Origin: Irineochytrium annulatum
Lineage: Eukaryota; Chytridiomycota; Chytridiomycetes; Chytridiales; Chytridiaceae
Length of the DNA stretch: 64,000 nt
NCBI GenBank assembly: GCA_027600665.1
Contig: JADGJL010000005.1
Location: forward strand, 1 to 64,000
Direction: 5' to 3'
This document shows, in pieces, positions 10,427 through 31,187 of the stretch (the stretch's first letter is position 1; every line of letters starts with the position of its first letter). The position numbers and the translations under genes are program-made. A model generated the notes under the pieces. It saw nothing but the letters and a program-made list of their open reading frames with translations, made no database searches and was not told the origin of the DNA.

Positions 10427-10623
10427 ACTAACGAATCGGAGACACGTTATTCAGGAGTATGAAGCAACTACGGAAATCTAAGGAACCTGAGACGCCCTAT
10501 TTAGAGATTTTGAGCCGTATATCGCGTTTAATCGTCAGATTTTTAGGAAATAGCGTGTCTGGTGTTCCTTAAAAATTATTAATGAGGGGGGGAGCACAAA
10601 TAAGACTCCCTGAATTCCTTAGA
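10427..10623. repeat. 197-bp four-half-site palindromic repeat, copy A
   Basis: Four related 28-base half-sites: two direct ones starting at 10427 and 10477, and two inverted ones ending at 10573 and 10623. The inner pair is 97 bp end to end and the outer pair 197 bp. Half-sites follow CTAA(C/G)GAA, then about 12 variable bases, then TATT. The inner pair and the right outer site use the AAGGAA variant. The geometry matches copies at 16920 and 30991. It may be an immobile MITE-like or REP-like element. Confidence 0.75.
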
Positions 10624-10800
10624 ATAAGAAAAAAGCCTGCGAGCAGCCTTAAAACAAGAAACAGGCCTACAAGCCGCAAGCAGCTCACACGCTAACTTGT
10701 ATGCCAAATCTTTTAAAGCCGCCTAAACCCTCCTAGATCATTCTAAATCCTTCTAAATCCTTCGAAATTACTTACCCGAGTCCATCGACAGTAGCAGTCA

Positions 10801-12456
10801 TTACCCCTTACGACCAACAACCCGCCAATTATCCGCCTGCTCCACTGTTAACGGTTGGTGTCTGCGGATGTAATCCTCTACCAGTGCGGCCATATCTGTC
10901 GCGCCTTCGTGCAGCACTTTTTTACCTGGATACATCGCATAATCTCCACCGCCAGCAGCACGGTAGCTGTTCATCACCACAGAGTACATGCCATCCATGT
11001 CCATTGGCTTGCCTTCACGTTCCAGCTTCACAACTCGACTACCTACAGGCTGGGAGATATCCAACTCGTATTCCATACCAGCCCACATATCGTAATTATA
11101 ATGCTGAGGTTTGGGTTCCATATAAGCCGGATTGACTGTCACCTCGCCAGAAGCATTTACTTCAAAGTAACGTGCCGTTTGTTCCAACGCCTCCCGGACA
11201 TCCTGACCACTCAGCTCCAGCACCGTCAGAGTATTAGGATAGATAAAGTTGGATAACACGTCCCGTACGGTGATGTGACTCCCGAAACCACGGGCTTCTT
11301 CACTTAGCATGGCGGTATTGGAGAGCTGCGCTCCAGTCGCTTCCATCTGCACTTGATGTACAAAAGCAATAAAAGGATGCGCCTTAAGCCGCAGAGCCGT
11401 TGCATTGGAGATGGACAAATCCCCAGCAACCTCGCCAATCGGTTGATCCAGCCATGCTTGTGCTTCAGCTTCCAGCTCGTCCGTAAGCTTCATAACTGTA
11501 GCATCAGGTTCGACCTCATTATGTTCATCCAGAAGTAACAACCGAGCCTTCTTATCTGTAATCTTCCATTTCCCGCACGATGATTGCTCCAACTGAACGG
11601 ATACATGCCCCGCACCATTTCCGCTGAATCCCGGCTGAATGACGGTTACACCATGGATAGTAGCGGTAAGCTGACGATGCTGATGTCCGGTAAGCAGCAC
11701 ATCGATGCCTTCAATGTCCCGACAGATGGCATAGCCTTGATTTTCTCCAGTTAACCGTTCGGCAGGCTCTCCTGTTTCCAGATCACTCTCAAACCCGCCA
11801 TGATAACTGACAACCATTACATCTGGTTGTTCATGCTCGCGTATATAGCCAACCCATGTACGAATGTTCTCCAAGGCATCAAGGAACTGCAGACCTTCAA
11901 TATTCTTCGGATGCTCCCAGTTCGGGATATAATGTGTCGTTGCACCCAAGAGTGCAATTCGAACACCGGAGGAGAGTGTCTTCATTAGATAGGGAGGGCC
12001 GAAGGCTGGCAGAGCTGCACCTGTTGGAAGATCTCTCGAAGATTCTGATTCATTGGCTCTGTCGTGCTCAGCATGAACAATGTTGGCTGACAGCCAAGGG
12101 AAGTTGGAAGCTTCAACTGCTCGGCGCAGCAGATCCTGACCATAGTTGAACTCGTGGTTACCCATCACCGCAGCATCGTATCCGAGTTCATTCAGTACTG
12201 TGATGAAGGGATGCCCTTCGTTGTTGGAAATCTGTGAAGCTGCATAAGAGGCCAAGGGTGATCCTTGCAGCAGATCCCCGTTATCCACCAGCATCAGTTC
12301 AGGTGAACGCTCGCGTTCCTTACGAATCAGGGAAGCCAGCAAGGCGAGCCCAGCCGGGCGGTACGCATTGGTATTGTAATGAATGGGGCGAATTGCCCCG
12401 TGCAGATCACTGGTATACAGAATATCGAAGCTTGCCGTAGGGTGTATGGATGTCAT
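10801..12456 (-). CDS. Bifunctional metallophosphatase/5'-nucleotidase, cytoplasmic type
   Basis: A 551-residue two-domain enzyme. The N-terminal calcineurin-like phosphoesterase domain shows T-S-D-L-H-G, D-N-G-D-L-L-Q-G, G-N-H-E-F-N-Y-G and G-H-Q-H-R, which supply the dinuclear metal site. The C-terminal 5'-nucleotidase domain (about 340-530) has Y-R-A-A-G-G-G-D-Y and supplies the substrate pocket. Relatives hydrolyse nucleoside monophosphates and UDP-sugars. Most are secreted, but this one starts without a signal peptide, like Bacillus YunD, and should be cytoplasmic. GAGGAG precedes the ATG. It is divergent from a phosphonate-type transporter, which suggests a shared phosphorus theme. Confidence 0.88.
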   Translation of the reverse strand: MTSIHPTASFDILYTSDLHGAIRPIHYNTNAYRPAGLALLASLIRKERERSPELMLVDNGDLLQGSPLASYAASQISNNEGHPFITVLNELGYDAAVMGNHEFNYGQDLLRRAVEASNFPWLSANIVHAEHDRANESESSRDLPTGAALPAFGPPYLMKTLSSGVRIALLGATTHYIPNWEHPKNIEGLQFLDALENIRTWVGYIREHEQPDVMVVSYHGGFESDLETGEPAERLTGENQGYAICRDIEGIDVLLTGHQHRQLTATIHGVTVIQPGFSGNGAGHVSVQLEQSSCGKWKITDKKARLLLLDEHNEVEPDATVMKLTDELEAEAQAWLDQPIGEVAGDLSISNATALRLKAHPFIAFVHQVQMEATGAQLSNTAMLSEEARGFGSHITVRDVLSNFIYPNTLTVLELSGQDVREALEQTARYFEVNASGEVTVNPAYMEPKPQHYNYDMWAGMEYELDISQPVGSRVVKLEREGKPMDMDGMYSVVMNSYRAAGGGDYAMYPGKKVLHEGATDMAALVEDYIRRHQPLTVEQADNWRVVGRKG

Positions 12457-12651
12457 TTTACAATCTCCTCTAATATATAAGTTCTTCCCATATCTTCAAC
12501 CATAATGAGCCTATTTTAACAGACTACAAGTCGCGCTGACAGCCTGACAGGAAACTTTACAAAACTCCAAATTTCGTTTCACATCGCGCAAATATTTGGC
12601 AATTATAGTAGACAAGTACTGAAAAATAGAAACTCTTTGGAGGGTGTTCGT

Positions 12652-13632
12652 TTGAAGAAGTCTGCTTTATTTTTACCATTGTTGATTTTGGTTCTGTTTC
12701 TGAGTGCTTGTGGGTCTAGTAGTACAACTGGTTCGGCTAACGGAGAGAATGCGAGTTCGAATGCATCCGGCACGGCGACGGCAGAGACAGAGAAGCCTGT
12801 CGAAGGTTATGTGCCAACGGAATTGACGGTTCAATTTGTTCCTTCCCAGAATGCAGACACGCTTGAAGCCAAAGCAAAACCGCTCGAGAAGTTGCTGGGT
12901 GACAAACTGGGCATCCCGGTAAAAGTCAGCGTATCCACGGACTACAACACGATTATTGAAGCCATGGCTTCCAACAAAGTAGACGTAGGTTTCCTGCCTC
13001 CGACAGCTTATGTACTGGCTAAAGAGAAAGGCGCTGCACAAGTTATTCTGCAAGCACAACGTTTTGGTGTAAATGATGAGACAGGTGCTCCAACAGAGCA
13101 ACTGGCGGATTCCTATAAATCCATGTTTATCGTGAAAAAAGACTCACCGATTCAATCCATCGAAGACCTTAAAGGTAAAAAAGTTGCTTACCAAAACGTA
13201 ACGTCTTCCGCAGGTTATGTATGGCCAGCAGGTCTGTTGCTCGACAGAGGCATTGATCCATTGAAAGATGTAACACCTGTAACGTTGAAAGGTCATGACC
13301 AAGGTGTGATCGCTGTATTGAACGGCGATGTTGATGCGGCAGCTATCTTCCAAGATGCCCGCAACACGGTAGCCAAAGACTATCCGACTGTATTTGAAGA
13401 TACACGTGTACTGGCGTTCACAGAGCCTATTCCTAACGATACCATTGCCGTTCGTACAGACATGAATGCTGATTGGACTGCGAAGATCAAACAAGCCTTC
13501 ATCGATATCGGTAAAGATACGGAAGGTCACCAGATCATCAAAGAAATCTATACGCATGAAGGTTATGTAGAATCCGATGATAGCAAGTTTGAGATCGTTC
13601 GTCAGTATGGCGAAAAAGTGAAAGGTGAATAA
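12652..13632 (+). CDS. phnD: Phosphonate/phosphite-type ABC transporter binding lipoprotein
   Basis: A 326-residue PhnD-family binding protein. It has a lipoprotein signal peptide with lipobox L-S-A-C and a low-complexity linker. The ligand domain includes D-V-G-F-L-P-P-T-A-Y and V-A-Y-Q-N-V-T-S-S-A-G-Y, the blocks that hold the phosphonate head group in the family. I choose TTG at 12652 because TGGAGGG ends 7-8 bp upstream; the in-frame TTG at 12637 overlaps that site. The ligand may be phosphonate, phosphite or another small oxyanion. No C-P lyase or phosphonatase gene is in the window. Confidence 0.9.
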   Translation: MKKSALFLPLLILVLFLSACGSSSTTGSANGENASSNASGTATAETEKPVEGYVPTELTVQFVPSQNADTLEAKAKPLEKLLGDKLGIPVKVSVSTDYNTIIEAMASNKVDVGFLPPTAYVLAKEKGAAQVILQAQRFGVNDETGAPTEQLADSYKSMFIVKKDSPIQSIEDLKGKKVAYQNVTSSAGYVWPAGLLLDRGIDPLKDVTPVTLKGHDQGVIAVLNGDVDAAAIFQDARNTVAKDYPTVFEDTRVLAFTEPIPNDTIAVRTDMNADWTAKIKQAFIDIGKDTEGHQIIKEIYTHEGYVESDDSKFEIVRQYGEKVKGE

Positions 13633-13714
13633 TTTGGATCCAAAGTAGTTCGGGATCTGTTCACTTTGTAGTCGCTCTCTTGGATGGGAACAGCTTAATC
13701 GTAGCAATGGACAG

Positions 13715-13745
13715 GCCAGTTCAGCGTGATCTACGCTGCGCTGGC
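13715..13745 (+). other. Intercistronic hairpin between phnD and phnC
   Basis: GCCAG/CTGGC (13715-13719 with 13741-13745) and CAGCGT/ACGCTG (13722-13727 with 13733-13738) form an interrupted 11-bp stem with no T-run. It lies in the 177-bp gap after the binding-protein gene. Such hairpins often protect the upstream message and so raise binding protein over permease; that role is inferred. Confidence 0.6.
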
Positions 13746-13809
13746 TTGTGCCATTATAGCAAGGACTTAGGTATGGTTGATCATTATGAATGAAAGAAGG
13801 ATTATTGCC

Positions 13810-14607
13810 ATGATTGAGCTTCATAACGTTACCAAAACTTACGCTAACGGCACCAAGGGCCTGGATAATATTAATCTAAAATTTGAGCAGGGGGAATTCA
13901 TTGCTGTAGTGGGTCTGTCGGGTGCGGGTAAATCAACTCTCCTGCGATCCATTAATCGGCTGCACGACATTAGTGAGGGCGAGATTCTGATTAACGGAAG
14001 TTCCATCACGAAGGCACAGGGCAAACGGCTACGCATGATCAGACGTGACATCGGCATGATTTTCCAAAGCTTCAATCTGGTGAAGCGGTCTAGTGTACTC
14101 CGTAATGTACTTGCTGGACGCGTTGGATACCATTCCACCATGCGTACCATTCTGGGTCGTTTTCCCAAAGAGGATATTGAACTTGCATTTACGGCGCTGG
14201 ATCGGGTTAACATCTCGGAGAAAGCCTATTCCCGTGCAGATCAGCTATCCGGTGGACAACAGCAGCGTGTGGCTATTGCCCGTGTACTGGCACAGGAAGC
14301 AAAAATCATTCTGGCTGACGAACCAGTTGCTTCACTCGACCCGCTTACAACGAAACAGGTCATGGATGACCTGAAACGCATTAATCAAGACCTTGGGATT
14401 ACCACGATTGTCAATCTTCACTTTATTGATCTTGCGAGAGAGTATGCGACCCGTATTGTCGGATTGCGAGCAGGCGAGGTCGTATTCGATGGCCCGGTGG
14501 AAGAGGCAACGGATGAGCGTTTTGCAGAAATATACGGCAGACCGATTCTCGCTGACGAATTGCTGGACAAGCAGGCTGTGCATGAGCAGGGAGAAGTTGT
14601 GGTATGA
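13810..14607 (+). CDS. phnC: Phosphonate-type ABC transporter ATP-binding protein
   Basis: A 265-residue ATPase with Walker [10 protein letters not shown], signature L-S-G-G-Q-Q-Q-R and Walker B I-I-L-A-D-E-P. The insert after the Q-loop ([12 protein letters not shown]) is characteristic of the PhnC subfamily. The ATG at 13810 follows AAAGAAGG by 9 bp and gives the usual family N-terminus. The stop codon overlaps the start of the first permease by four bases (ATGA), implying translational coupling. Confidence 0.93.
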
Positions 14608-15455
14608 AGGGGCAGTCCAACGTTCCACTTCAGAATGTAGGCGGAGTGGGGAAGGAACCTGGTTCCAGCCCGGCTCAGGTTGTGAATCGCCCGAAACCGC
14701 CTGGGCGTACGAAACATCTGCTCACCCTAGTGATCATTCTGCTCCTTCTGTGGGCCAGTGCCAAGCAGACGGATGCCAGCTTTACGGAGTTGTATGAAGG
14801 TTTCCCCAACATGCTGGATCTGCTGAAGGAGATGTTCCCACCTCGGTGGAGTTACTTTGATAATATCGTGCAAGGCATGCTGGAAACGATCCGAATGGCC
14901 CTGATCGGAACAACCATTGGTGCCATTATTGCAATCCCGATCTCGATCATCTGTGCCGGTAACCTGATGCCGAGTCGCTGGATCTATTATCCGGCGCGCT
15001 TTCTGCTGAACCTGATTCGGACTGTACCGGATCTGCTGCTTGCTGCTCTATTTGTAGCTGTGTTTGGTCTGGGTCCAATCCCCGGAATCTTGGCACTGGC
15101 TGTGTTCTCGGTTGGTCTGATTGCGAAGCTCACGTATGAGACGCTGGAAACCATTGATCAGGGGCCGCTGGAAGCGATGACGGCTGTGGGTATGAACCGG
15201 ATTCAGCTCATTGTATATGGCGTGGTGCCGCAATTGGCTGCTCAGTTCACATCCTATGTGCTGTATGCCTTCGAAATTAATATACGTGCTGCTGCTATTC
15301 TCGGACTAGTGGGAGCCGGAGGAATTGGACTCTATTATGAGGCCACACTTGGATTCCTGGAGTATGACAAGACCAGCGTAATCATTCTGTTTACCCTCGT
15401 CATTGTTCTGGTCATTGATTATGTAAGTACTAAGCTGCGGGAGAAATTGCTATGA
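14604..15455 (+). CDS. phnE: Phosphonate-type ABC transporter permease 1
   Basis: A 283-residue PhnE-family membrane protein. A hydrophilic proline-rich N-terminus (about 35 residues) is followed by about six membrane segments and an EAA-type loop ([12 protein letters not shown]) near residue 190. It starts within the phnC stop codon and ends overlapping the second permease. It should pair with that permease as a heterodimeric channel. Confidence 0.92.
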
Positions 15456-16258
15456 TGAAAAATGAAACAAGCCGCATCCGGCCAAAACCACGGAAGAACC
15501 CGCTACGCTGGGTCATTGTGTTACTGCTGATCCTTGTATATGTCTGGGCTCTCGCCGGTGTACCATTCACTGGTTTCAAGGAAACTGCTGCCCAGATTAT
15601 GAAGGCTATTGTAGCCGGAATATTCTCACCGGATTGGGATTTTGTATATCTGCCTGAGGGAGAAGATCTGCTGTGGGGACTGCTCGATACGCTGGCGATC
15701 TCTGTGTTGGGTACCGTAATCTCGGCTGTGCTCTGTATCCCGTTTGCTTTCTGGTCTGCCCGCAACATGAGTGGGCATCGTTCCATCTCGGGTGCAGGCA
15801 AAATGGTACTCAGCTTCATCCGCACGTTCCCTGAGATTATCATGGCCTTATTGTTCATCAAGGCAGTCGGTCCCGGATCGTTCGCAGGGGTACTCGCCCT
15901 CGGATTGCACTCCATCGGCATGTTGGGTAAATTGTACGCTGATGAAGTCGAGAATATCGACTACGGCCCATCTGAGGCGCTGCTTGCCTCCGGAGCCAAT
16001 CGCATGCAGCAGTTGTGGTTCGCTATCCTACCGCAGGTGATGCCTGGATTCCTGAATTATACGTTGTATCGTTTCGAGATTAATGTACGTTCCGCGACCA
16101 TACTGGGTGTAATCGGGGCAGGGGGGATCGGTACCCCGCTGATCTTTGCACTTAGCACACGGAACTGGCCGCGAGTAGGTATAATCCTGTTGGGTATTAT
16201 TGTGATGATCACAATTATCGACTTGATCTCAGGGTATATTCGTAAGAAGCTGGTGTAG
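15452..16258 (+). CDS. phnE: Phosphonate-type ABC transporter permease 2
   Basis: A 268-residue PhnE-family permease with the EAA loop G-P-S-E-A-L-L-A-S-G-A-N near residue 173. It has the same topology as its partner but clearly diverged sequence, including an extra periplasmic stretch after the first segment (residues about 35-70). The ATG at 15452 overlaps the preceding stop. It is the last gene of the phn unit and is followed by an intrinsic terminator. Confidence 0.92.
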   Translation: MMKNETSRIRPKPRKNPLRWVIVLLLILVYVWALAGVPFTGFKETAAQIMKAIVAGIFSPDWDFVYLPEGEDLLWGLLDTLAISVLGTVISAVLCIPFAFWSARNMSGHRSISGAGKMVLSFIRTFPEIIMALLFIKAVGPGSFAGVLALGLHSIGMLGKLYADEVENIDYGPSEALLASGANRMQQLWFAILPQVMPGFLNYTLYRFEINVRSATILGVIGAGGIGTPLIFALSTRNWPRVGIILLGIIVMITIIDLISGYIRKKLV

Positions 16259-16348
16259 GCTAATGTGGGGCTACGAGGCATATTAGATAGTGGTGCCATA
16301 AAGTATATTAGATAATTAAGTAAGGTTAGACGATAGAGTAAGAGGAGA

Positions 16349-16392
16349 GGGCTATTCGCTGCCAGAAATATGGCTAGGGATAGTCTTTTTTT
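16349..16392 (+). terminator. Terminator of the phn operon
   Basis: GGCTATTC pairs with GGATAGTC (two G-T pairs), with an inner GCCA/TGGC stem, followed by TTTTTTT at 16386-16392. It lies 90 bp downstream of the last permease. The rest of the gap up to 16603 is AT-rich and shows nothing else certain. Confidence 0.7.
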
Positions 16393-16603
16393 GTGTCTGC
16401 AAATCATCAACAGAGTGTTCTTATTACTGTGCTGATCATTATTCAATAAGGATGTTCAAAGAATATGCAGACCGAGGATTGAATTAATTTCCAATGACAT
16501 GTAGTATTAATAGATTCCTATATAAAGGCAATTAAGGATATTAATCAATATTCCTCATAGATAACCATTACAAGTAATCAGTTTTTCAAAAGGAAGGTGA
16601 CCT

Positions 16604-16864
16604 ATGGAATTATTTCAATATATATGGATTGGGTTTATGGTACTCCTGTTACTCTACAGAATGGTTTTTCAGAAGTTTAAAAAACATAACAGAGAAAATA
16701 TTGGACTCAGTGCAATCCTGATTATTTTCACGGGAAGCGCTTATACGTTTACACACATGAACTTGATTTTTGTCATCAGTATCATCGCCGTGGCCGCTTG
16801 TTCTGCGGTATGGAACAGCATTCTATTTGTGAAAAATGGATATGTGCCTGAACGTTTGAAATGA
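16604..16864 (+). CDS. Small membrane protein of unknown function
   Basis: An 86-residue protein with AAAGGAAGG placed 6 bp before the ATG, which supports translation. About three hydrophobic segments are visible (residues 4-20, 35-52, 53-73), separated by a basic loop K-F-K-K-H-N-R after the first. I do not recognise the family. It stands alone between the phn terminator and a repeat element, with no clear partner. Confidence 0.65.
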   Translation: MELFQYIWIGFMVLLLLYRMVFQKFKKHNRENIGLSAILIIFTGSAYTFTHMNLIFVISIIAVAACSAVWNSILFVKNGYVPERLK

Positions 16865-16919
16865 ATCCACGCTCTGCATTGCATTTACAATATGTAACCA
16901 TAGTCGTCGCAGGAGCTGG

Positions 16920-17115
16920 TCTAACGAACTTGAGAGTCCTTATTGGGAACATGAGGCGTCACTGGCATTCTAACGAATCGTAGTGATGCTATTTGTTGAG
17001 TCTAACCTGAATTAACCCTCTTGGAGCGGAAATATAGTTAAATAGCGACACTAAGGTTCGTTAGATTTTAGAATTCCGTCAAAATGGCTGAATAAGATCT
17101 GTCAGATTCGTTAGC
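16920..17115. repeat. Four-half-site palindromic repeat, copy B (196 bp)
   Basis: Half-sites start at 16920 and 16969 in direct orientation and end at 17065 and 17115 in inverted orientation; the inner pair is exactly 97 bp. All four begin CTAACGAA and have TATT about 20 bases in. The layout equals copies A (10427) and C (30991). The stretch contains no gene. A 150-bp featureless piece separates it from the terminator at 17301. Confidence 0.75.
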
Positions 17116-17300
17116 CGCGTTAAGGGGGAAGGGTATCACGTGAAATTCCCAATACATAAGCGCACGAGTCAATGAGCCGAGAAGCCCGCGATCCCAAGAG
17201 CGTCAGCCCCTGAGATTCATAAGTAACAAGTCACTTTAGCGTCATGAGTGAATTGGTACCGTATAAGTCAAAGTATTCCGATGTTCCTCTGCTCAACTAA

Positions 17301-17353
17301 AAAAAACCGAAACCAGGTTGCCCTGAATCAGGCAATGTTGGTTTCGGTTTTTT
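17301..17353. terminator. Strong bidirectional terminator
   Basis: A perfect 15-bp stem (17301-17315 with 17339-17353) reading A6-CCGAAACCA, with an inner TTGCC/GGCAA plus CTGA/TCAG stem. A-run and T-run ends serve both strands. It ends the minus-strand secreted-protein gene. Confidence 0.92.
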
Positions 17354-17390
17354 AGTAGCTTGGTTAAAAGTCAGGCTTCTTTATTAAGAC

Positions 17391-20195: not shown

Positions 20196-20384
20196 CCAAA
20201 TCCCTCCCAGATATTAGTTAATTCATGAGTTCGTCCATATTCTACCACATGAAAATCTCACATAGTCATAACAATTTGTAAAAATTAACTCGATATTTGT
20301 AAAATTGGGTCTTTTGACATATCCATAGGTATTTCGGTCCTGTCTTAACACTCCCATCCGGCGTCACTGTTGATTTTGCATAAA

Positions 20385-21083: not shown

Positions 21084-21797
21084 ATGAGACCAAAAGAGAT
21101 TTTAATTATTGAGGACGAGGAGTCCATTCGAGATATTTTGTCCTATTCGTTACGCAAGGAAGGATTTGAGATCAAGGAAGCAGCTACGGGTAAAGAGGGG
21201 TTGAATCTGCTTCGGGATTCGAAGCCGGATCTGATCCTGCTGGATCTGATGCTACCGGATATGAGCGGTTTTGATGTGTGTCGGCAACTGTCTGTGAACT
21301 CCAAGATACCCGTCATCATGATCACTGCGAAGTCTGACATGCTGGACAAGGTACTTGGCATGGAGCTTGGGGCGGATGATTATATCACGAAACCTTTTGA
21401 TATTCGTGAGGTGGTTGCGCGCATTCGTGCAATCTTTCGCCGGATTGATCTCATCAGCGAGACACTGGAGAATCAGTCCTATGAGGTGGTCAGGCTTGGC
21501 AAGCATATTGAGATTCGCAAGGATGAACGGGAAGTGTGGAAAGACGGGGAACGCGCAGGACTCACCAATAAGGAATATGACCTGTTGTTATTTCTCGTGA
21601 CCCATCATCGTAAGGTACATACACGTTCTGAACTGCTGGACAAGGTATGGGGATTTGATTTTGCAGGAGATACCCGAACGGTGGATATTCATATACAACG
21701 GATTCGCAAGAAATTGGATAGTGGTGTGCAGGGCATTTCGATGATCGAGACTGTATTTGGTGTAGGGTATAAGCTGAATATTCAGGTGCAGACATGA
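21084..21797 (+). CDS. OmpR/PhoB family response regulator
   Basis: A 237-residue regulator. The receiver domain has the acidic pair E10-D11, phospho-acceptor D54 in L-L-L-D-L-M-L-P, and Lys in I-T-K-P-F. The C-terminal winged helix has the R-T-V-D-I-H-I-Q-R-I-R-K-K-L recognition helix. I chose the ATG at 21084, which gives the normal receiver start; an ATG at 21048 is in frame but adds an atypical extension. The stop overlaps the kinase start (ATGA). It probably controls the efflux genes at 24629 through the direct repeat at 24523-24556. Confidence 0.93.
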   Translation: MRPKEILIIEDEESIRDILSYSLRKEGFEIKEAATGKEGLNLLRDSKPDLILLDLMLPDMSGFDVCRQLSVNSKIPVIMITAKSDMLDKVLGMELGADDYITKPFDIREVVARIRAIFRRIDLISETLENQSYEVVRLGKHIEIRKDEREVWKDGERAGLTNKEYDLLLFLVTHHRKVHTRSELLDKVWGFDFAGDTRTVDIHIQRIRKKLDSGVQGISMIETVFGVGYKLNIQVQT

Positions 21798-23260
21798 AGT
21801 GGACCATCCAGTTCAAAATGGTGGTGCTCTTCTCGGTCATCGTCTTTATCGGATTCTCCGTTCTGCTGATTCTGTCCAATAAGGTGGCACAGGAGAATAT
21901 GTACCGGGAAGTGCATGAGGACATGGTGCAATCGAAGAAAAATCTGGATATCGCGCTGAATCAGTACTTCCTGATTCATAACAAACGCATGAGCAGAGAC
22001 TCGCTCGAAGCAGGAAGCCGCGAGCTTGCGGAGCAGATTGGTTCAGCCGTTGGCGGAAAAATTACCGTATATCGCCCTGATGCTTCACCATACGGATCTA
22101 CTGGCAGTGAAGCTAATGTCGCTATGCGGTCTGACCATCCTGATGTGAAGGCGGCCATACAATCCAAGATCGCGTATACCACAGTTGTGGATAAAGGTCG
22201 GGTCACCTCCAGTCTGTCCTTTCCGCTTCAGATGGATCAACAATTGATCGGAATTGTGCAGATGGAGAAGGATTACACGGATTTGTTCAAACGCAACCTG
22301 CGTTTTCAAAATACGATCAAACTATTCGCAGCGGTGATTTTCGTATTTGTATTTATCGCCTCCATCTTTATTTCCCGGAAAATTACCCAACCTATCCGTG
22401 TACTCACGAAACGTTCTGCGGAAGTGGCTCAGGGGAGTTTGAATGCAGACATTCAGATAACCACTAAGGATGAGATTGGTGAACTGGCTTCAAGCTTCAC
22501 CATCATGATTGATCGTGTGCGGGAGCAGATTGATGTGATTGAGCGAGAACGGGACGAAGTGAATCAAGTACAGGCGCGAAGCAAAGTCTTTTTTGACAAT
22601 GTGACACATGAACTGAAGACACCACTAACGACCATTCTGGGATACGCCCAGATTTTGCGGGATAACGGATTTACCGATCAGGATTTTTTTGACAAAGGCA
22701 TGAATTATATTATCAAGGAAAGTCAGCGTCTCAACACGATGGTTGCGGATATCCTGGAGGTCTCGGTCTCCTCTGCGGTCATTCAGGCGTACCGATTCGA
22801 ACGTATCGATGTATCGGATGTTATTCGTGAAGCTTGTGAAGACATGTCGATTAAGGCGGGCAAGTACAATATAGGCATTCACTATGAGCTGGAGGAACAC
22901 CAGTATCTACAAGGAGATCGGGACAAGCTGAAGGAGGTATTCCTCAACGTTCTGGATAATTCGGTTAAATACAGTGATGTCAATTCAATCATTGAAGTAC
23001 AATCCTTCCGGTTAGGTGAGACCATCGCTATTGTGATTCGTGATCAGGGGGAAGGAATCGGAGCTGAAGCACTCCAGCATGTATTTGAACCCTTTTACCA
23101 GGATAAAGGAATCAACAGGGTGGAGAAGGGCAGCGCAGGACTGGGCTTGTCTATTGTGAAGAACATCGTGGAGCGTCATGGAGGAACAGTGGAGATGAAG
23201 AGCATCATGCGGCAAGGGACACAAGTAAATATCAGTCTTCCGGGGGAAATGAACGCATGA
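21794..23260 (+). CDS. Membrane sensor histidine kinase
   Basis: A 488-residue kinase. It has a first membrane segment at 8-28, an extracellular sensor of about 145 residues, a second segment at about 174-194, and a HAMP domain. The dimerisation helix has H272 in [12 protein letters not shown]. The ATPase domain has N box [15 protein letters not shown], and G-L-G-L-S-I-V-K. The sensor has no family I recognise. Both flanking genes overlap it by 4 bp, so regulator, kinase and the propeller-like protein are translated as one coupled unit. Confidence 0.93.
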
Positions 23261-24426
23261 GACATCCAGGATTCTGGCGAAAGCACCGTGACAAATTGAT
23301 GTTGTCAGGGCTGTTAATCGCATTTGTCAGTGGAATCTTCGGAATCGGCAGTCTGTTCAGTATGGGGAATCTCAAACCAAGAACGGTGATTATGCCAAGC
23401 GAGCAGTTCAACAGCCGTCTGGCGCCGCCGCCCAGCAGTACTATTCAAGTCGAGTCGGCAACGAAGATTCCGAATGACTTCGCAATCTATGATTTTGAAG
23501 TGGTAGACCGAAATACAATTATATTAAATCAACCGGAACCTTCCTATTCAGGGCTGCGGCTGTCTCTCCTGCATCTGGATGATAATGAAGTGAAAAATAT
23601 TGCAACGAATACGGATTACGGTGTAGTCATCAGCCCGGATCACAAGAAGTTGATATACTCCCAATATCGGGCGGGTCAAGCGCAGAAGACGACGTATGAG
23701 TATATGATTCAGAGCGGGGAACGTCGCAAACTTTCGAACGATAACTCGTATTACAGAGTGTTTACAGGGAATGAATCCTACATCGGTCAGGATGATCTCT
23801 TATTCAAACAAGTCGATCTAAAGCAGGGAACGAGTCAGACCATCTACACGCATGATGAGCTGATGGGCATGTTTGCTGGAACAGGACAAGGACGAGAAAA
23901 AGGATCGAGTGATACATTTATCGTTATGGATGTCTTTGAGGTCAGTGAAGATCTGAAGCAGTTCTACATGCTGGTGATGCTGAAAGAAAACTATGCCATA
24001 TATCGTGTGTCGCTTGAGGATGCGCATGAAGTGAAGGCATATGCGGCAATGGAAGAGATTCAACAGTACAAGTTACTGAAGAACGGGGACATGCTCATCC
24101 AGGGAACGATCAATAAGGTGCAGGGATTATATCGGTATCGCGCAGAACAGAAGCAATATGATCTGGTCCTGAAAGGGTCCATCTGGAGCTTCGAACTGGA
24201 TGCAGATCAATCGCGAATTGCTTATTTTTTGCCAATGGATAATCAGAATCAGAAGAATGAATTGCATATTGCCTATCTGAATGACAGCAAGCTTTCGTCA
24301 GATACGGTGATCTACCGTAATATTGATAGCTTCATCAAACTCAGATGGAATGATGACGAACTATTTGCAGTAGGAAGCACCATGGATAAAAGTGAAATGT
24401 ACCGCTTTAGTTTCAGAGCCTGGTAA
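23257..24426 (+). CDS. Membrane-anchored propeller-like protein linked to the two-component system
   Basis: A 389-residue protein of unknown family. A basic N-terminus and a single hydrophobic segment (about 14-36) anchor it. Residues 60-389 are a long beta-strand-rich extracellular region with recurring patterns such as [15 protein letters not shown] and [14 protein letters not shown], which recall TolB/WD40-like beta-propeller blades. It starts inside the kinase stop codon (ATGA), so it is probably made in step with the kinase. It may bind or present a signal to the sensor domain; this is inference. Confidence 0.7.
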
Positions 24427-24448
24427 GCTATGGAAGGTATATGAAGAT

Positions 24449-24503
24449 AAGACCTTGGTCTGGATGAGGCTGGCGACAGCTCCCATGCGGACAAGGTCTT
24501 TTT
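24449..24503 (+). terminator. Terminator after the two-component unit
   Basis: AAGACCTTG (24449-24457) pairs with CAAGGTCTT (24492-24500) around a 34-base loop, followed by TTTTT. It separates the regulator/kinase/propeller unit from the efflux operon, which then needs its own promoter. Confidence 0.7.
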
Positions 24504-24522
24504 GTTATGACAATTTACAAAT

Positions 24523-24566
24523 TGGATACAACTCCGGTCAGCCTGGATACATCTCCACCCTATAAT
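24523..24566 (+). promoter_or_regulatory. Direct repeat and -10 box of the efflux operon (candidate response-regulator site)
   Basis: TGGATACAACTCC (24523-24535) and TGGATACATCTCC (24544-24556) differ at one base and are 21 bp apart, two helical turns. A perfect TATAAT follows at 24561-24566, and no -35 consensus exists at 24538-24543. Direct repeats over the -35 position are the usual binding mode for OmpR-type regulators, so the regulator at 21084 is the prime candidate. A related TTGGATACAGATC lies at 20889-20901. Confidence 0.6.
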
Positions 24567-24628
24567 AAAAGGGAATGTGCTACGCGAATCTATACATACT
24601 TGGCAAGTAGAAAGGAAGACATGCAGTA

Positions 24629-25312
24629 ATGCTTCAAGTTGATCAATTATCCCACTCGTTCCGTAATAGCCAGGGAATCGTACCGGTGCTTCAAGACATC
24701 AACCTGACGATTGCAGAAGGCAAGATGGTGGCGCTGCTGGGAAGTTCAGGTTCAGGCAAGTCCACGCTGCTGAATCTGATGGCGGGGCTGATGAAGCCGG
24801 ATCAAGGCAGGATTCTGATTGCGGGACAAGATATTGTTCGTTTCAGTGAGAATCGCCTGGCTGAGTTCAGGCGCAGTCATATCGGATTTATTTTCCAGTC
24901 GTATGAGCTGCTGTCCAATCTCACGATTCGGGAAAATGTAGAGTTACCGTTGGTGTTCATGGGGATCAGCCCTTCGAAGCGCAAAGCAAAAGCATTGAAA
25001 CTATTGGATCAGGTTGGACTAAGTGAAAAAGTAAACTTGTTCCCGTCCCAGTTGTCGGGCGGTCAACAACAACGTGTCAGTATTGCACGCTCACTCATTA
25101 CCGAACCCTCGGTGATCTTCGCAGATGAGCCTACCGGGAATCTGGATACCGAGACAGAGGAAGAGATTATTGCAATTTTGCAGCAGCTTAACCGGGAGCT
25201 GAATACCACCTTTGTTATTGTGACACATGAAGCAGAAGTCGCGGAACAGATGCAGGTTGTACTTACATTGCAACATGGAATATTGGTTGAAGAGGCTGTA
25301 AGGGAAGTTTGA
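24629..25312 (+). CDS. ABC transporter ATP-binding protein, MacB/LolD type
   Basis: A 227-residue ATPase with Walker A G-S-S-G-S-G-K-S-T, signature L-S-G-G-Q-Q-Q-R and Walker B V-I-F-A-D-E-P-T-G-N-L-D. The T-G-N-L-D extension is typical of the MacB/FtsE group that works with FtsX-like permeases. AAAGGAAG lies 10 bp before the ATG. It is the first gene of a three-gene export set with the permease at 25331 and the adaptor at 26730. Such systems export peptides or lipophilic compounds or act in envelope stress. Confidence 0.93.
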   Translation: MLQVDQLSHSFRNSQGIVPVLQDINLTIAEGKMVALLGSSGSGKSTLLNLMAGLMKPDQGRILIAGQDIVRFSENRLAEFRRSHIGFIFQSYELLSNLTIRENVELPLVFMGISPSKRKAKALKLLDQVGLSEKVNLFPSQLSGGQQQRVSIARSLITEPSVIFADEPTGNLDTETEEEIIAILQQLNRELNTTFVIVTHEAEVAEQMQVVLTLQHGILVEEAVREV

Positions 25313-25330
25313 GGCAAAAGGAGAGGAAAT

Positions 25331-26701
25331 GTGAGAATACGGGATGTAGCACGTATGGCCTGGGGACAGATCATTCGCAGGAAAATGGTCACACTGCTGT
25401 GCATGATGGGGTTGTCCATCGGTTCTGCCGCCATGATCATTGCACTTAGCGTGGGGCAGTCCGTACAGGCCTATAGCGAGAAAACATTGAACGACAATTA
25501 CAAGATGGATGAGATCACAATTACGCCCAATGAAGGCATACGTACGGGGAACGGCAAGGGGGGCGGTCAGAGCTCGACATTTGAACGCGGTGCGCTGACG
25601 CTGGAGAAGATTCAGATTATTCAGAGAATTCCCCATGTGGTTGCTGTGGCACCCATGTTAAAGCTGGATTCGTTGGAGATGGTGCTTCCGGATGGTCGCA
25701 GTACATACGTTGAAGTTATTGGCACGGAGCTGCAGACCCTGGGCGGGTTCGGATATAAATATGCCGTGGGACGTGCGGCGGAGGATGGTCGTATGGCGGT
25801 GACCAGCTATGGGGCCGCATTCGGACTTGTAGACCCGAAAGTAACTCAGAAGTTATTCGAGCAGTTGAATGCTGATCCATATAACAATGAGCTCCTGCAG
25901 CAGTATACGGAAATGTCATCCAAGCAGGATCAGTTGGTTCAGCAGCGTGTCCAGTTCCGATATGAAGATTATGCGGATGCGAGTAAAACCAAAATGAGTG
26001 GCTCTGTACGTGTATCAGGCGAGCTTACGAAACCTTCCAACATGGATGAGATGAGTGCTCAGGGCGACAAAAAAGTATATCTGCCGCTGGACACAGCACG
26101 TGCATTGCAGGATGAGCTTGGATTGCAACAGGCGGATAGTAGTGCAGCCAAGCGTCTGAACTCAGCCTTGGTCAAAGTGGAGGATAAACGCTATGTATCC
26201 CAGGTTGAAGAACAGATCCAGAAGCTGACGTTAAATACACAGAGCAATCTCTTCCAGGAGGAAGCAATGGCTGGCCAACTGGCGATGTATCAAAAAGCGG
26301 CATTGGGCATCGGTGGTTTTATCATGTTGCTGGCCTCGTTGTCCATTGTTGTAGCGATGATCATGTCTACGCATCAACGGCGCAAGCAGATTGGTGTAAT
26401 GAAGGTGCTGGGGGCGAATCTGTGGCAGATCCGCCAGATGTTTATAACGGAAGCAGCGATGCTTGGATTAATGGGCGGCTTGGCAGGTGTTGGAATTGCC
26501 TTTGCTGCCCTCGACGGGGTGAACAGTCTGCTCGCGAGTCAGATGGTAGATCAGGTCAATGGTCCGATGACCGTGGTTATTCAGCAGTCCGTTCTGCCGC
26601 TCGGCATCGTGTTTGCTGTGCTGGTCGGTGTTGTATCGGGAATATATCCGGCAATTAGCGCATCGCGGACCAATGCATTAACTGTGATCAAATCAATGTA
26701 A
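25331..26701 (+). CDS. MacB-type ABC transporter permease (FtsX domain)
   Basis: A 456-residue permease. One N-terminal membrane segment (about 20-40) is followed by a large extracellular MacB-like domain (about 45-320). Three C-terminal segments form the FtsX domain with the block Q-R-R-K-Q-I-G-V-M-K-V-L-G-A. GTG start at 25331 after AGGAGAGG; the overlapping ATG at 25329 hits a stop at once. A glycine-rich loop near residues 70-85 is unusual but not disruptive. It partners the ATPase 18 bp upstream. Confidence 0.92.
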   Translation: MRIRDVARMAWGQIIRRKMVTLLCMMGLSIGSAAMIIALSVGQSVQAYSEKTLNDNYKMDEITITPNEGIRTGNGKGGGQSSTFERGALTLEKIQIIQRIPHVVAVAPMLKLDSLEMVLPDGRSTYVEVIGTELQTLGGFGYKYAVGRAAEDGRMAVTSYGAAFGLVDPKVTQKLFEQLNADPYNNELLQQYTEMSSKQDQLVQQRVQFRYEDYADASKTKMSGSVRVSGELTKPSNMDEMSAQGDKKVYLPLDTARALQDELGLQQADSSAAKRLNSALVKVEDKRYVSQVEEQIQKLTLNTQSNLFQEEAMAGQLAMYQKAALGIGGFIMLLASLSIVVAMIMSTHQRRKQIGVMKVLGANLWQIRQMFITEAAMLGLMGGLAGVGIAFAALDGVNSLLASQMVDQVNGPMTVVIQQSVLPLGIVFAVLVGVVSGIYPAISASRTNALTVIKSM

Positions 26702-26729
26702 TTTTATCAGCGAAAGGGAAATTGGGCAC

Positions 26730-27806
26730 ATGAAGAAATGGATTAAAATCATCATCACGGTTGTACTTTTGGCAGGTGTGGGGTACTGGCTGTATGAAAA
26801 GTACAAACCAAAACCGGAGGCACCTGTTGAGATCCCGCCGCCAATTACGTTTGATGTTACACAAGAAACGATGACGCAAACGATTCAGGTAAAAGGGAAA
26901 TCCGTATATACCGATCAGACGGATATCTATGCTCCATATGCTTCGAACATCCAGCAGTGGCATGTGAAAAGTGGTGAGCAGGTGAGCAAGGGGGATATCC
27001 TGTTTACACTCGACACGTCCACGTTACAAACGGAAGTCGAGCAATTGCAGAGCGATCTGGAGAAAGCCCAGCTTGAAAATAAGATGAATCAGGTTAGCCT
27101 GGATCAGGCGAATATGAGCGAGCCGCTTGGCGTGACGGAAGAAGAGCGCAAGAAGGCATTTGCGGACCGGGAAGCCAAACGCCTGACGTATGAATTGAAT
27201 CAAAAAGCACTGGTCCTGAAGGAGAAGGAGATACAGAAAAAGCAGGCCGTGATGAGCAAGTCCACTGTGTATGCTTCCGCCTCCGGTATATTTCAGATGA
27301 ATGAAGAGGACAGCAAGACACGTGCAGTGACGGAAGGACAGCTAATCGGGTCCATTACCAATATCAGCAAACTGAAATTCATGACGATTGTTGGTGAAGA
27401 AGAGATGTTCAGACTTAAGGTGGGCATGCCGGTTAAGGTACGAATGACAGCGCAGAAAGACCTGCAATTCACCGGGAAGGTAAGCAAGGTGTCCAAGTTC
27501 GCCCGGAAGAGTACCGATACAGACCTCAAGCAGGCTTCGCAGTTTGACGTGGTCATTGATCTGAAGCCGGATGCAAGGATGTATGGAGGCGTGAGTCTGG
27601 AAGGCGATATCGAGACGATGCGTAAGGATAAAGTGACGGTTGTGTCCAGCTTGGCCATCATGCGGGATCAGACCGAACCTTACGTCCTGTTAGACAAAGG
27701 GAACGGACTGACAGAGCCGCTGACCATCAAGGCTGGAATGGAATCGGGGGACAAGACGGAAGTGCTAAGCGGGTTAAAACCGGGAGATGTCGTTGTTCTG
27801 CCCTAG
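26730..27806 (+). CDS. HlyD/MacA-type efflux adaptor (membrane fusion protein)
   Basis: A 358-residue adaptor. An N-terminal membrane anchor (residues 5-22) is followed by a barrel-sandwich (lipoyl-like) half with S-G-E-Q-V-S-K-G-D-I-L-F-T-L-D, a coiled-coil hairpin (about 95-175), the second sandwich half, and a beta-barrel domain (K-V-G-M-P-V-K-V-R-M-T). In Gram-positive bacteria such proteins sit on the outer face of the membrane next to the MacB-like permease (as YknX does with YknYZ). It is the last gene of the efflux unit. I see no strong terminator behind it. Confidence 0.9.
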   Translation: MKKWIKIIITVVLLAGVGYWLYEKYKPKPEAPVEIPPPITFDVTQETMTQTIQVKGKSVYTDQTDIYAPYASNIQQWHVKSGEQVSKGDILFTLDTSTLQTEVEQLQSDLEKAQLENKMNQVSLDQANMSEPLGVTEEERKKAFADREAKRLTYELNQKALVLKEKEIQKKQAVMSKSTVYASASGIFQMNEEDSKTRAVTEGQLIGSITNISKLKFMTIVGEEEMFRLKVGMPVKVRMTAQKDLQFTGKVSKVSKFARKSTDTDLKQASQFDVVIDLKPDARMYGGVSLEGDIETMRKDKVTVVSSLAIMRDQTEPYVLLDKGNGLTEPLTIKAGMESGDKTEVLSGLKPGDVVVLP

Positions 27807-27952
27807 ACAAACGGGTGAAATTCGACCTTGATCAACACGAGGTTCATTGTGGTATAAGGCCAGGATGAGCCTCTGGTGCGGTTAGGGGCAAGGGGTGTCC
27901 AGATTCCTGCCTGGATTATGGAAAAAAATATAATTAAATTTATTTAATTCAA

Positions 27953-27981
27953 TTTACAGTAATATTTACATGTCGTATAAT
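27953..27981 (+). promoter_or_regulatory. Promoter of the GH6 cellulase gene
   Basis: TTTACA (27953-27958) and a perfect TATAAT (27976-27981) with a 17-bp spacer. The surrounding sequence is A/T-rich, which would favour strong initiation. The predicted start is about 27988, immediately before AAGGAGG. Confidence 0.65.
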
Positions 27982-27987
27982 CGTACA

Positions 27988-28043
27988 TAAGGAGGTGACA
28001 CCGAACATCAAGTTTGTAGATGGGCAGGCGATGGCCTTTTTTT
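27988..28043 (+). promoter_or_regulatory. Leader element with poly-T end (possible attenuator), copy 1
   Basis: At the predicted 5' end of the transcript: AAGGAGG, GGTGACACC, a CATC...GATG hairpin, then GGGCAGGC and a small AGGC-GATG-GCCT hairpin running into TTTTTTT. AAGG at 27988 can also pair with CCTT before the T-run. The element at 31366-31423 has the same order of blocks (GGAGG, ACCG, small hairpin, GGGCA(A/G)GC, T-run). It may be an attenuator or small regulatory RNA. It matches no riboswitch class I know. Confidence 0.45.
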
Positions 28044-28054
28044 AAACCGCTTAA

Positions 28055-28068
28055 AGAAAGCGCTTACT
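28055..28068. promoter_or_regulatory. cre-like site downstream of the GH6 promoter
   Basis: AGAAAGCGCTTACT carries the AAAGCGCTT core of CcpA sites and lies about 67 bp downstream of the predicted start, a position used for roadblock repression. Glucose repression of a cellulase would be expected. Confidence 0.45.
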
Positions 28069-28331
28069 GAAGTGAAAGATTCAAGTATCCTGTAAATCCA
28101 TCTCCACACTTCTTCATGTCTAACACACAATCACCCACACCCGCCACATTATACTCATTCTCATGGTTCGCCCTCACACAATTTGTTTGATCAAGTTTCC
28201 AGTTATACAACCATTTCTTATGGAGGTGATACAACCAACTCATCCGAACGTTCTCTTCGTGCTAAGCATCATCATGACACAGAGGATCAGACATGAGTAC
28301 AACCCAATCTAACTAAAGGAAAGGTGGAACT

Positions 28332-30776
28332 ATGAAGACTACATTGAAAACCAGATCAAGAGGTAAGAAGATCCTGCGCAAAGGAGTAAAGCAAATGTTG
28401 GCGGCAACACTGCTGGCGGCGGGGATTTTCCCGGGAATGTCTCCGGGCCTGACTCAGGCGGCTGAAGCACATGTGGATAATCCATTTGTAGGGGCAACAG
28501 CTTATTTGAATGAGGACTATTCGGCTCTTGTGGATACGTCCATTGCGTTGACCAATGATGCATCGCTGAAGGCACAGATGGAGACTGTCAAATCGTATCC
28601 AACCGCAGTGTGGATTGACCGGATTGCTGCGATCTATGGCGGTACGGACAATGCGGGTCGCAAAAGCGTTGAGGAACATCTCGATGCTGTTCTTGCCCAA
28701 AAGAAACCCGGGACACCAATAACGGCTTCATTCGTTATCTATAACTTGCCAGGTCGGGATTGTCATGCCCTTGCTTCGAATGGTGAACTTCCACTAACAC
28801 AGGCTGCACTACAGACGTATAAAACGGATTATATTGATGTGATTGCAGATATCTTCGCAGATCCGAAGTATCAGGATATTCGCATTATCGCTGTCATTGA
28901 ACCGGACAGTCTGCCTAACCTTGTGACCAACCTGAGTACACCAGCTTGTGGTCAAGCCAGCTCAACAGGTATCTATGAGGCCGGTGTGAAGTATGCATTG
29001 GACAAGCTGCACGCGATTCCGAATGTGTACAACTATCTGGATATCGGTCACTCCGGCTGGCTTGGATGGGATAACAACCGTTCTGCAGCAGTTGCGTTGT
29101 ATACGGACGTAGTAAATGATACTGCGGCAGGTCTGCAGAGTGCAGATGGCTTCATTACGAACACGGCGAATACCACACCGCTGGGAGAGCCGAACCTGTC
29201 CAACCCGGATCTCAATATCGGTGGACAACCGATTAAATCAGCCAAGTTTTATGAGTGGAATCCGTATTTTGACGAAACCGATTTCACCGCTGCGCTGTAT
29301 ACCGATTTCGTACAAGCCGGCTGGCCAAGCAGCACAGGTTTCCTGATCGATACTAGCCGGAACGGCTGGGGCGGGGTAGACCGTCCAACATCGGCTACGG
29401 GCAGCAACATCAACGATTATGTAAATTCCGGACGTGTAGATCGCCGGGAGCATCGAGGGAACTGGTGTAATGCCAGTGGAGCTGGCATAGGGGAAGTCCC
29501 TAAGGCAGCGCCAGGACCAGCGCATCTGGATGCTTATGTCTGGGTGAAACCTCCGGGTGAATCCGATGGCTCCAGTTCCGAAATTCCGAATAACGAAGGC
29601 AAAGGTTTCGACCGGATGTGTGACCCGACCTTCACCACTCGGGATGGTGTATTAACAGGTGCATTGCCCAATGCTCCGGTATCGGGTCACTGGTTCCATG
29701 ATCAATTCGTGGCACTGGTGAAGAACTCATTCCCTGTGCTGCCTGCAAGTAATGGTGGAGGCAATCCTCCGGGAGGTAATACAGCTCCGGCTGCACCCAC
29801 AACTTTGACGGCTACTGCCGGTAACGCTCAGGTCTCCTTGACGTGGACGGCTTCTGCAGGTGCGACCAGTTATAGCGTGAAGCGGGGACTGAGCGCATCA
29901 GGTCCATTCACAACGATCGCAGCCAATGTGAGTGGAACATCTTACACCAACACTGGCTTGATCAATGGCACAACCTATTATTATGTGGTCACGGCAACCA
30001 ATGCTGTAGGTGAGAGTGTTAACTCTGCCACAGCAATTGCTACACCGGTTGCAGGTGTAACGGCGCCAGCTGCACCGACTGCGCTCACAGCAACCGCAGG
30101 TAATGCACAGGTGAGTCTGACGTGGACTGCCTCTACAGGTGCAGCAAGTTATAATGTGAAACGGGCGCTGAGTGCAGCAGGTCCGTTCACAACAATCGCG
30201 ACGAATGTGAGTGGTACGTCATACACCAACACTTCCCTGACGAACGGAACAACGTATCATTATGTGGTAAGTGCAGTGAACACAGCAGGGCAAAGTGCCA
30301 ATTCTGCTGTAGCTTCCGCGACACCTCAAAGTGTCGTTGTACCGACAAGTGATCTTGTCATGCAATATCGTGCTGGAGATACCAATGCGCTGGACAGCCA
30401 GATCAAACCGTATTTCAACATTAAAAATCTGGGCAGTACTGCTGTGAATCTGAGTGATCTGAAGATCCGGTATTACTTCTCCAAAGAAGGATCGGCTGCA
30501 ATGGATTCAGCCATTGATTACGCTCAAGTTGGCGGAGCCAATATTCAGCGCACCTTCACAGACTCGTATGTAGAGCTGAGCTTCACAGCCGGCGCTGGCA
30601 GCATTCAGGCTGGTGGACAGACTGGCGATATCCAGCTTCGCATGTACAAAACAGACTGGTCCAACTTTGACGAGACGAATGATTACTCCTTCGATCCAAC
30701 GAAAACATCCTATCAGGATTGGAACAAAGTAACACTCTACCAAGGTGGAAACCTGGTGTGGGGCATTGAGCCTTAA
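28332..30776 (+). CDS. Secreted GH6 cellulase (cellobiohydrolase type) with two Fn3 domains and CBM3
   Basis: An 814-residue secreted enzyme. Basic signal peptide ending near T-Q-A-A-E-A (residue 44). The GH6 catalytic domain (about 50-475) shows L-P-G-R-D-C, I-E-P-D-S-L with the probable acid Asp, the G-H-S-G-W-L-G-W substrate block, H-R-G-N-W-C-N, and D-A-Y-V-W-V-K-P-P-G-E-S. A Gly/Pro linker leads to two Fn3 modules (about 488-575 and 583-665) sharing a nearly identical opening, then a family 3 cellulose-binding module (about 670-814) starting D-L-V-M-Q-Y-R-A-G-D. GH6 enzymes cleave cellulose by inversion from the non-reducing end; exo versus endo cannot be settled here. AAAGGAAAGGTGG precedes the ATG. 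Likely under catabolite control. Confidence 0.92.
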   Translation: MKTTLKTRSRGKKILRKGVKQMLAATLLAAGIFPGMSPGLTQAAEAHVDNPFVGATAYLNEDYSALVDTSIALTNDASLKAQMETVKSYPTAVWIDRIAAIYGGTDNAGRKSVEEHLDAVLAQKKPGTPITASFVIYNLPGRDCHALASNGELPLTQAALQTYKTDYIDVIADIFADPKYQDIRIIAVIEPDSLPNLVTNLSTPACGQASSTGIYEAGVKYALDKLHAIPNVYNYLDIGHSGWLGWDNNRSAAVALYTDVVNDTAAGLQSADGFITNTANTTPLGEPNLSNPDLNIGGQPIKSAKFYEWNPYFDETDFTAALYTDFVQAGWPSSTGFLIDTSRNGWGGVDRPTSATGSNINDYVNSGRVDRREHRGNWCNASGAGIGEVPKAAPGPAHLDAYVWVKPPGESDGSSSEIPNNEGKGFDRMCDPTFTTRDGVLTGALPNAPVSGHWFHDQFVALVKNSFPVLPASNGGGNPPGGNTAPAAPTTLTATAGNAQVSLTWTASAGATSYSVKRGLSASGPFTTIAANVSGTSYTNTGLINGTTYYYVVTATNAVGESVNSATAIATPVAGVTAPAAPTALTATAGNAQVSLTWTASTGAASYNVKRALSAAGPFTTIATNVSGTSYTNTSLTNGTTYHYVVSAVNTAGQSANSAVASATPQSVVVPTSDLVMQYRAGDTNALDSQIKPYFNIKNLGSTAVNLSDLKIRYYFSKEGSAAMDSAIDYAQVGGANIQRTFTDSYVELSFTAGAGSIQAGGQTGDIQLRMYKTDWSNFDETNDYSFDPTKTSYQDWNKVTLYQGGNLVWGIEP

Positions 30777-30796
30777 ACTTTATTTGTAACTGTCTT

Positions 30797-30834
30797 AACC
30801 GCGATCCTCAGTGTGTTAGAGGATCGCGGTTTTT
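30797..30834 (+). terminator. Terminator of the GH6 gene
   Basis: A perfect 13-bp stem (AACCGCGATCCTC at 30797-30809 with 30819-30831), a 9-base loop, then a short T-run. Confidence 0.88.
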
Positions 30835-30941
30835 GCTATGCATTACAAGAGTCATTCTAGATTGAAGTTCTCACTTGAACAATGTATGTATAATCGCTTG
30901 AAGATCCGTAATTAGGGATGTAAGAGCGGGCGTATCAGGCT

Positions 30942-30981
30942 GGGCTGTCCTCTGTTCATGAAAATGAGCAGGGGACAGCCC
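30942..30981. repeat. Hairpin preceding repeat copy C
   Basis: GGGCTGTCC (30942-30950) pairs with GGACAGCCC (30973-30981), with inner CTGTTCAT/ATGAGCAG pairing and a T-rich tail. It resembles the hairpin at 10309-10350 in sequence (GGGCTGTCC...), and both stand just upstream of a 197-bp repeat. No gene ends immediately before it, so it is probably part of a repeated block rather than a gene's own terminator. Confidence 0.6.
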
Positions 30982-30990
30982 TATTTCTTT

Positions 30991-31187
30991 TCTAACGAAC
31001 AGAGGACACGCTATTCAGTTGAATTGATGCATTTGATAAATCTAACGAATCGTAGACACGCTATTTAGTTAATTTGGGTAGATTTTGATCCTCTTAGACT
31101 CGTTTTGGTCCAAATAAGGTTACTGAGATTCGTTAGGATTCGTTGTTGCAGTTTCACCACCTAATAGGGTGCGTGGGATTCGTTAGA
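30991..31187. repeat. 197-bp four-half-site palindromic repeat, copy C
   Basis: Half-sites start at 30991 and 31041 (direct) and end at 31137 and 31187 (inverted). The spans are 97 and 197 bp, exactly as in copy A. Three of the four begin TCTAACGAA, and TATT recurs about 20 bases in. No reading frame of note crosses it. It lies between the GH6 terminator and the promoter region of the PL11 gene. Confidence 0.78.

Follow-up and report, generated by a model that had tools for sequence, protein, structure and literature searches.

What is a repeat of about 197 bp, assembled from four oriented sites at fixed distances, that recurs between genes? The question is raised by the window, a stretch of 64,000 nucleotides (positions 1 to 64,000 of contig JADGJL010000005.1, assembly GCA_027600665.1, deposited as Irineochytrium annulatum), in which an initial annotation had reported three copies of such an element at 10427-10623, 16920-17115 and 30991-31187, here called E1, E2 and E3. 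All three are present, and the element is a large, dispersed, intergenic family found across many Paenibacillus. The reading favoured here, with a probability of roughly 0.6, is that it is a double-stranded DNA site wrapped by a putative multimeric protein. The closest relatives of the window are Paenibacillus of the amylolyticus/pabuli/xylanexedens group; its assembly (G000), with 26.9 Mb in 1082 contigs, is probably mixed and not one clean genome.

Layout and distribution of the element

Each copy carries four related sites in the orientation + + - -, the first two forward and the last two reversed; their form is TAA(C/G)GAA ... TTATT, and the element as a whole has no strand. The sites of E1 lie at 10428-10451 (+), 10478-10501 (+), 10549-10572 (-) and 10599-10622 (-), those of E2 at 16921-16944 (+), 16970-16993 (+), 17041-17064 (-) and 17091-17114 (-), the left arm being short by one base, and those of E3 at 30992-31015 (+), 31042-31065 (+), 31113-31136 (-) and 31163-31186 (-). 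Counted from the first site, the site starts are 0/50/144/194 in E1 and E3 and 0/49/143/193 in E2, from which the inner span of 97 bp and the outer spans of 197, 196 and 197 bp follow, as first described. The half-site text originally proposed, CTAA(C/G)GAA-N-TATT, fits 11 of the 12 window sites; the twelfth, at 10572 (-), departs by two changes in its CTAACGAA part and was picked up by a fuzzy scan.

A core pattern of four TAASGAA at fixed gaps of 43/79/43, with up to three mismatches, was searched in 17 genomes of named relatives, with the reversed pattern as control. It was found in 8 of them, at 71 places in total: 26 in P. amylolyticus Heshi-A3 (G003), 19 in P. tundrae (G007) and 11, 7, 3, 2, 2 and 1 in the others. 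The reversed control gave 0 in all 17, as did a control with the centre 4 bp longer, whose exact version also gave 0 in genome_contigs, so the layout is not the coincidence that had been considered at the outset. In the genus of G003, 38 of 75 genomes were positive at exact spacing (at most two mismatches), with up to 74 places. Its family, taken to be Paenibacillaceae, was searched with exact TAACGAA cores and the centre free at 60-90 bases; 90 of 394 genomes were positive, with up to 118 exact copies (G150) and controls of 0. A class-level sample yielded 15 positives among 299 genomes, all 15 already within the 394, and no element was found in the 272 class genomes outside them.

A half-site search and fetched regions revealed 17 more places in the window's own assembly where three or more sites stand in the same layout. 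Only three sites are recognisable in L034, L035 and L042, and L048 has a single half-site. The fixed spacing claimed initially holds in most copies and breaks down in L037, where the two spacings of 50 become 54 and 48, and in L038, where the right arm is longer by 5 bp.

Quantised length and phased spacers

The spacing of the element is quantised, with two centre lengths one helical turn apart. Though 31 lengths (174-204) were permitted, 214 of the 217 distinct places listed, which for most genomes are the first places only, have spans of 182-184 or 192-194 bp. The tally is 10 at 182, 103 at 183, 3 at 184, 12 at 192, 85 at 193 and 1 at 194, with one each at 185, 187 and 197. Among the collected loci, 66 have spans of 182-184 and 116 of 192-193, and G003 contains both length classes. 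Single collected copies have spans of 159 and 163, the latter of which would be two helical turns under 183. Within the arms, spacing is 50 in 303 of 316 cases, 49 in 11 and 51 in 2, with a finder that admitted 49-51 only.

The spacers were compared in 85 copies of exact spacing, a set that leaves out E2 as one base short. A/T lies at positions 29-32, 40-41, 45-47, 79-82 and 90-92 from the outer core, with G/C between these patches and at the dyad. The A/T phase at 10.1 bp gives a Rayleigh R of 0.96 in 37 non-redundant copies, against at most 0.44 when letters are shuffled within spacers. The phase has the same sense in 85 of 85 copies, with A/T at 84% of in-phase and 44% of out-of-phase positions, and no A/T phase was seen in the flanks of the copies. 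The 183 class is likewise phased (R 0.87 at 10.1 bp, 15 copies). Measured from the dyad, the rotational setting of the 183 class (+6 degrees) is opposite to that of the 193 class (-173), because the arms are shifted by 5 bp each. The setting thus tracks the arms and not the dyad, which indicates that the facing of the arms is what is kept.

The single sites also have internal symmetry. A centre scan placed the best symmetry centre at position 10 in all four site sets, outer and inner in both classes. An exact CGTTA facing TAACG is present in the 193 class at 25 of 84 inner sites and 7 of 84 outer ones, and in the 183 class at 8 of 30 inner sites and 2 of 30 outer ones. Each site is an imperfect dyad with a stronger left half.

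Conservation at orthologous loci

Grouped by their flanks, the 85 copies represent 57 loci, of which 21 have more than one copy. After pairs of L163 and reused copies were dropped, 18 independent ortholog pairs with identity of at least 0.72 were compared. In these pairs TAT, which is absent from every search pattern behind the copies, differs at 8 of 216 positions versus 406 of 1692 in the spacers. Within the spacers, the A/T-phase positions differ at 100 of 576 and the others at 306 of 1116, and the exchanges that keep A/T number 32 of 100 in phase versus 36 of 306 elsewhere. Gap openings number 119 in 5954 aligned bp of element versus 342 in 5351 of flank, counted at identity of at least 0.65 among 33 aligned pairs.

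A locus was also followed independently of the element, through the gene that adjoins copy L154. This gene was searched in 75 genomes, of which 53 matched, and 30 loci were taken and given a four-site score (maximum 56) with spacing free within limits. The score is at least 48 in 19 loci and 46 in one truncated at the end of its contig; the other 10 score 34-37, the background. Among the 19 carriers, L332 has one damaged outer site, and a few sites are weak in L340 and L343. Of the non-carriers, L338 has undergone a deletion that left a relic of an outer site, and the intergenic stretch is a different one in L346, L348, L349 and L352. Eighteen copies, without L332, were compared pairwise. The TAA.GAA core differs at 17 of 3672 positions (0.5%) and TATT at 99 of 2448 (4.0%), both of which enter the score, while the rest of the sites differs at 11.1%. 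In-phase spacer positions, which do not enter the score, differ at 502 of 4879 (10.3%) versus 2058 of 9605 (21.4%) in the other spacer, with flanks at 2423 of 15578 and 2661 of 16495 (15.6-16.1%). Per 100 columns, the element has 0-0.69 gap openings and the flanks have 1.49-2.13.

The window copies also have orthologs. E1 has orthologous copies in L060 and L084 and is replaced in L058, L075 and L077; E2 has them in L051, L053, L057 and L076, and the entire intergenic stretch is missing at its locus in L052, L055, L072 and L079; E3 has one in L186, by flank similarity. To the right of E2, from window position 17115 onward, the sequence diverges between species from the element end (L051, L053, L057 and L076), and L051 and L057 have an extra small open reading frame (ORF) there.

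Proposed mechanism and rival explanations

Four oriented 23-bp sites of the TAACG-N11-CGTTA type, 50 bp apart within an arm and facing across the centre, would form the binding platform. Since each site is an imperfect dyad, it is probably bound by a dimer, and two centre lengths one helical turn apart would place all four sites on the same face of the helix. The DNA between the sites would be bent round a protein core by the A/T patches every 10.1 bp. Binding of four dimers with wrapping of the DNA is what we infer from this arrangement. As to role, the most likely guess is local chromosome architecture or topology, such as keeping a supercoil in place or forming a barrier at points where transcription converges. 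More tentatively, and rather doubtfully in its full form, the element may be a bacterial equivalent, programmed by its sequence, of a positioned nucleosome, in which some 200 bp carrying four dimer sites and continuous bending signals of 10.1-bp period would be wrapped by a lineage-specific or repurposed octamer at up to more than 100 places per chromosome, preferentially at convergent ends, and be selected as a topological or domain-boundary element.

The initial annotation had proposed that structure is under selection, as a cruciform, an RNA hairpin or a protein-binding array, or else that a compact non-autonomous element has spread recently. The quantised spacing, the phased spacers and the conservation in place support selection on structure and the protein-binding array. 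That the two arms pair into a structured RNA, or a terminator-like hairpin, about 200 nt long is highly improbable, even if the inverted sites and the position of copies at gene ends would suit such pairing. In single folds E2 does well against shuffles (z -4.66) and E3 moderately (z -2.51), with E1 little better than shuffled (z -1.44); single copies can outfold shuffles because their sites are inverted. When arms were compared across 37 non-redundant copies, complementarity within a copy did not exceed that between copies (z -0.94 for outer sites, -0.25 for spacers, 0.34 for inner sites) and was lower in the centre (-4.15), which disfavours hairpin and cruciform alike. Compensatory arm-to-arm changes did not appear, Rfam gave 0 matches in the window at the gathering threshold, and helical A/T phasing is meaningless for RNA. 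It is also very unlikely that the element is a strong site for DNA gyrase, a topoisomerase, as a counterpart of the gyrase-binding bacterial interspersed mosaic elements (BIME-2), for all its preference for convergent gene ends. Gyrase is universal and the element patchy, the reversal of the dyad setting between classes should be incompatible with a fixed central cleavage site, and no gyrase requirement for four 23-bp sequence-specific sites is known. The E. coli gyrase motif, according to PMC6379681, is about 130 bp long and symmetrical, with nucleosome-like periodic GC% flanks of period 10.75 bp; the element has no such 10.75-bp flanks round a central cleavage site, its best period being 10.1 bp.

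A third rival would make the element a non-autonomous transposon resembling a miniature inverted-repeat transposable element (MITE), with two transposase sites at each end, so that the geometry would reflect the needs of a transposase and the copies would otherwise be inert. Correia elements, ERIC, bcr1 and RUP are intergenic repeats of MITE type, and the element resembles such repeats in being dispersed, intergenic, of the order of 100-200 bp, inverted at its ends and variable in copy number (0 to 118 exact copies). The copies did spread, as recent mobility would have it. There are 37 dispersed within-genome pairs of look-alikes, near-identical at unrelated places, whose shared sequence ends sharply about 6-8 bp outside the outer sites, in some pairs further out, and then falls to background; G150 holds head-to-tail tandem arrays (L305, L310, L308 and L313) with units of about 200, 244 or 273 bp; and presence is patchy at single loci. 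The transposon part of the proposal fared less well. Target duplications of 2-9 bp, sought at seven offsets in 85 copies, showed no consistent excess over shuffled pairing, and neither a composite nor an autonomous relative was found among the 316 arms of the collected loci, the scope of that search. Of these arms 306 are paired at element length and 10 are unpaired, none of them composite. An unpaired arm in L306 was rejected as a candidate, being an assembly gap within a tandem array. Loci without the element do exist, but they resemble intergenic deletion or replacement, one of them (L338) keeping a relic of an outer site, and conservation of orthologous copies after insertion is not expected of inert ones. 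Unlike MITE-type repeats, the element has double sites in each arm, a helically quantised length and conservation in place, with no target duplication or autonomous partner found. Such a transposon is therefore judged unlikely.

Several observations weigh against the wrapping model as well. RemA- or LrpC-type octamers are candidate wrappers only; RemA-family genes occur in 75 of 75 genomes, carriers and non-carriers of the element alike, and such universality gives no account of the element's patchy spread. At the stringency used, no copy was detected in 37 of 75 genus and 304 of 394 family genomes, so the element is dispensable across the family. The off-spacing copies in L037 and L038 and those of lengths 185, 187 and 197 depart from the rule, and the phase spectrum has side peaks (R 0.75 at period 8 and 0.93 at period 12), though of smaller amplitude. 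Copies contain fewer indels than flanks do, yet are not free of them; some pairs have 15-18, which may reflect poor alignment or wrong orthology. The site tests are partly conditioned on core-based finding; the A/T-phase and TAT comparisons are not.

If a protein does wrap the element, dozens of defined chromosomal sites would become available at which supercoil or domain borders between convergent genes could be tested, and the family would offer a route to the wrapping complex itself.

Genomic surroundings

The element is enriched between convergent genes. By a simple ORF reading of the same loci, 41 of 82 gaps with an element are convergent versus 22 of 145 without; the corresponding p of 4e-8 is too small because copies are partly orthologous. 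No dedicated neighbour gene emerged among 747 ORFs near 184 elements, which belong, as named by eye, only to large ordinary families. The origin-proximal half holds 22 of 25 copies in G018:C1 and 15 of 16 in G019:C1, where the contig starts with a DnaA-like ORF. No origin clustering is seen in G129 (17 of 40) or in G149 (11 of 28, start of contig presumed), so origin bias is not a general property.

Two copies in the window follow terminator-like inverted repeats on the + strand. One, of GGGGCTGTCC type and followed by a T-run, lies at 10311-10353, about 75 bp before E1; the other, of GGGCTGTCC type and followed by a T-rich stretch, lies at 30942-30989, immediately before E3. The association noticed initially extends beyond the window, since the 9-mer of GGGCTGTCC-type hairpins lies within 120 bp of 7 of the 85 copies, whereas its density in these loci would predict about 0.5.

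The stretches of E1 and E3 had no match in phage and plasmid collections, and viral_contigs contained no 193-class element. Two IMG/VR contigs carry 183-class copies (L236 at 8803-8985 and L237 at 9541-9723), located within or bordering regions that look PBSX-like by eye. A literature search gave no account of such an element among the matches listed.

Comparison with known systems

Most dispersed repeats of bacteria are short hairpins or the remains of transposons. The present family stands apart by its helix-turn-quantised spacing, its nucleosome-like spacer phase and its conservation at orthologous places.

RemA is an octamer and LrpC, of the Lrp/AsnC family, consists of four dimers, and both are proposed DNA wrappers of Bacillales in PMC8481266. 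The RemA footprint described there covers six or more AT-rich repeats of 7 bp with 3-bp gaps, a 10-bp period, at sites that are poorly conserved and upstream of promoters. Four dyad sites and a 10.1-bp phase would fit an octamer of this kind, as would phased AT contacts about 10 bp apart, which are present in 85 of 85 copies. Unlike RemA sites as described there, the sites of the element are strongly conserved and half of the copies lie between convergent genes.

The dispersed, intergenic position and the periodic, wrapped type of motif recall the gyrase motif and BIME-2, some of which are bound by gyrase (PMC6379681). Repetitive extragenic palindromes (REPs) are mostly palindromes of 20-50 nt, according to PMC12306157. 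Compared with REP and BIME as so described, the element is not a short G+C-rich hairpin palindrome; it is about 200 bp long, with four 23-bp sites, TAACG/CGTTA cores and no covariation between arms.

A further likeness is to the nucleosome, with its long-range phased A/T patches. In eukaryotic nucleosome-positioning DNA, A/T patches in the minor groove recur every 10-10.2 bp over a long stretch, and the 193 class shares the nucleosomal setting at the dyad. Unlike nucleosome DNA, the element is bacterial, reverses the dyad setting in its 183 class and adds four sequence-specific sites to the phased spacers.

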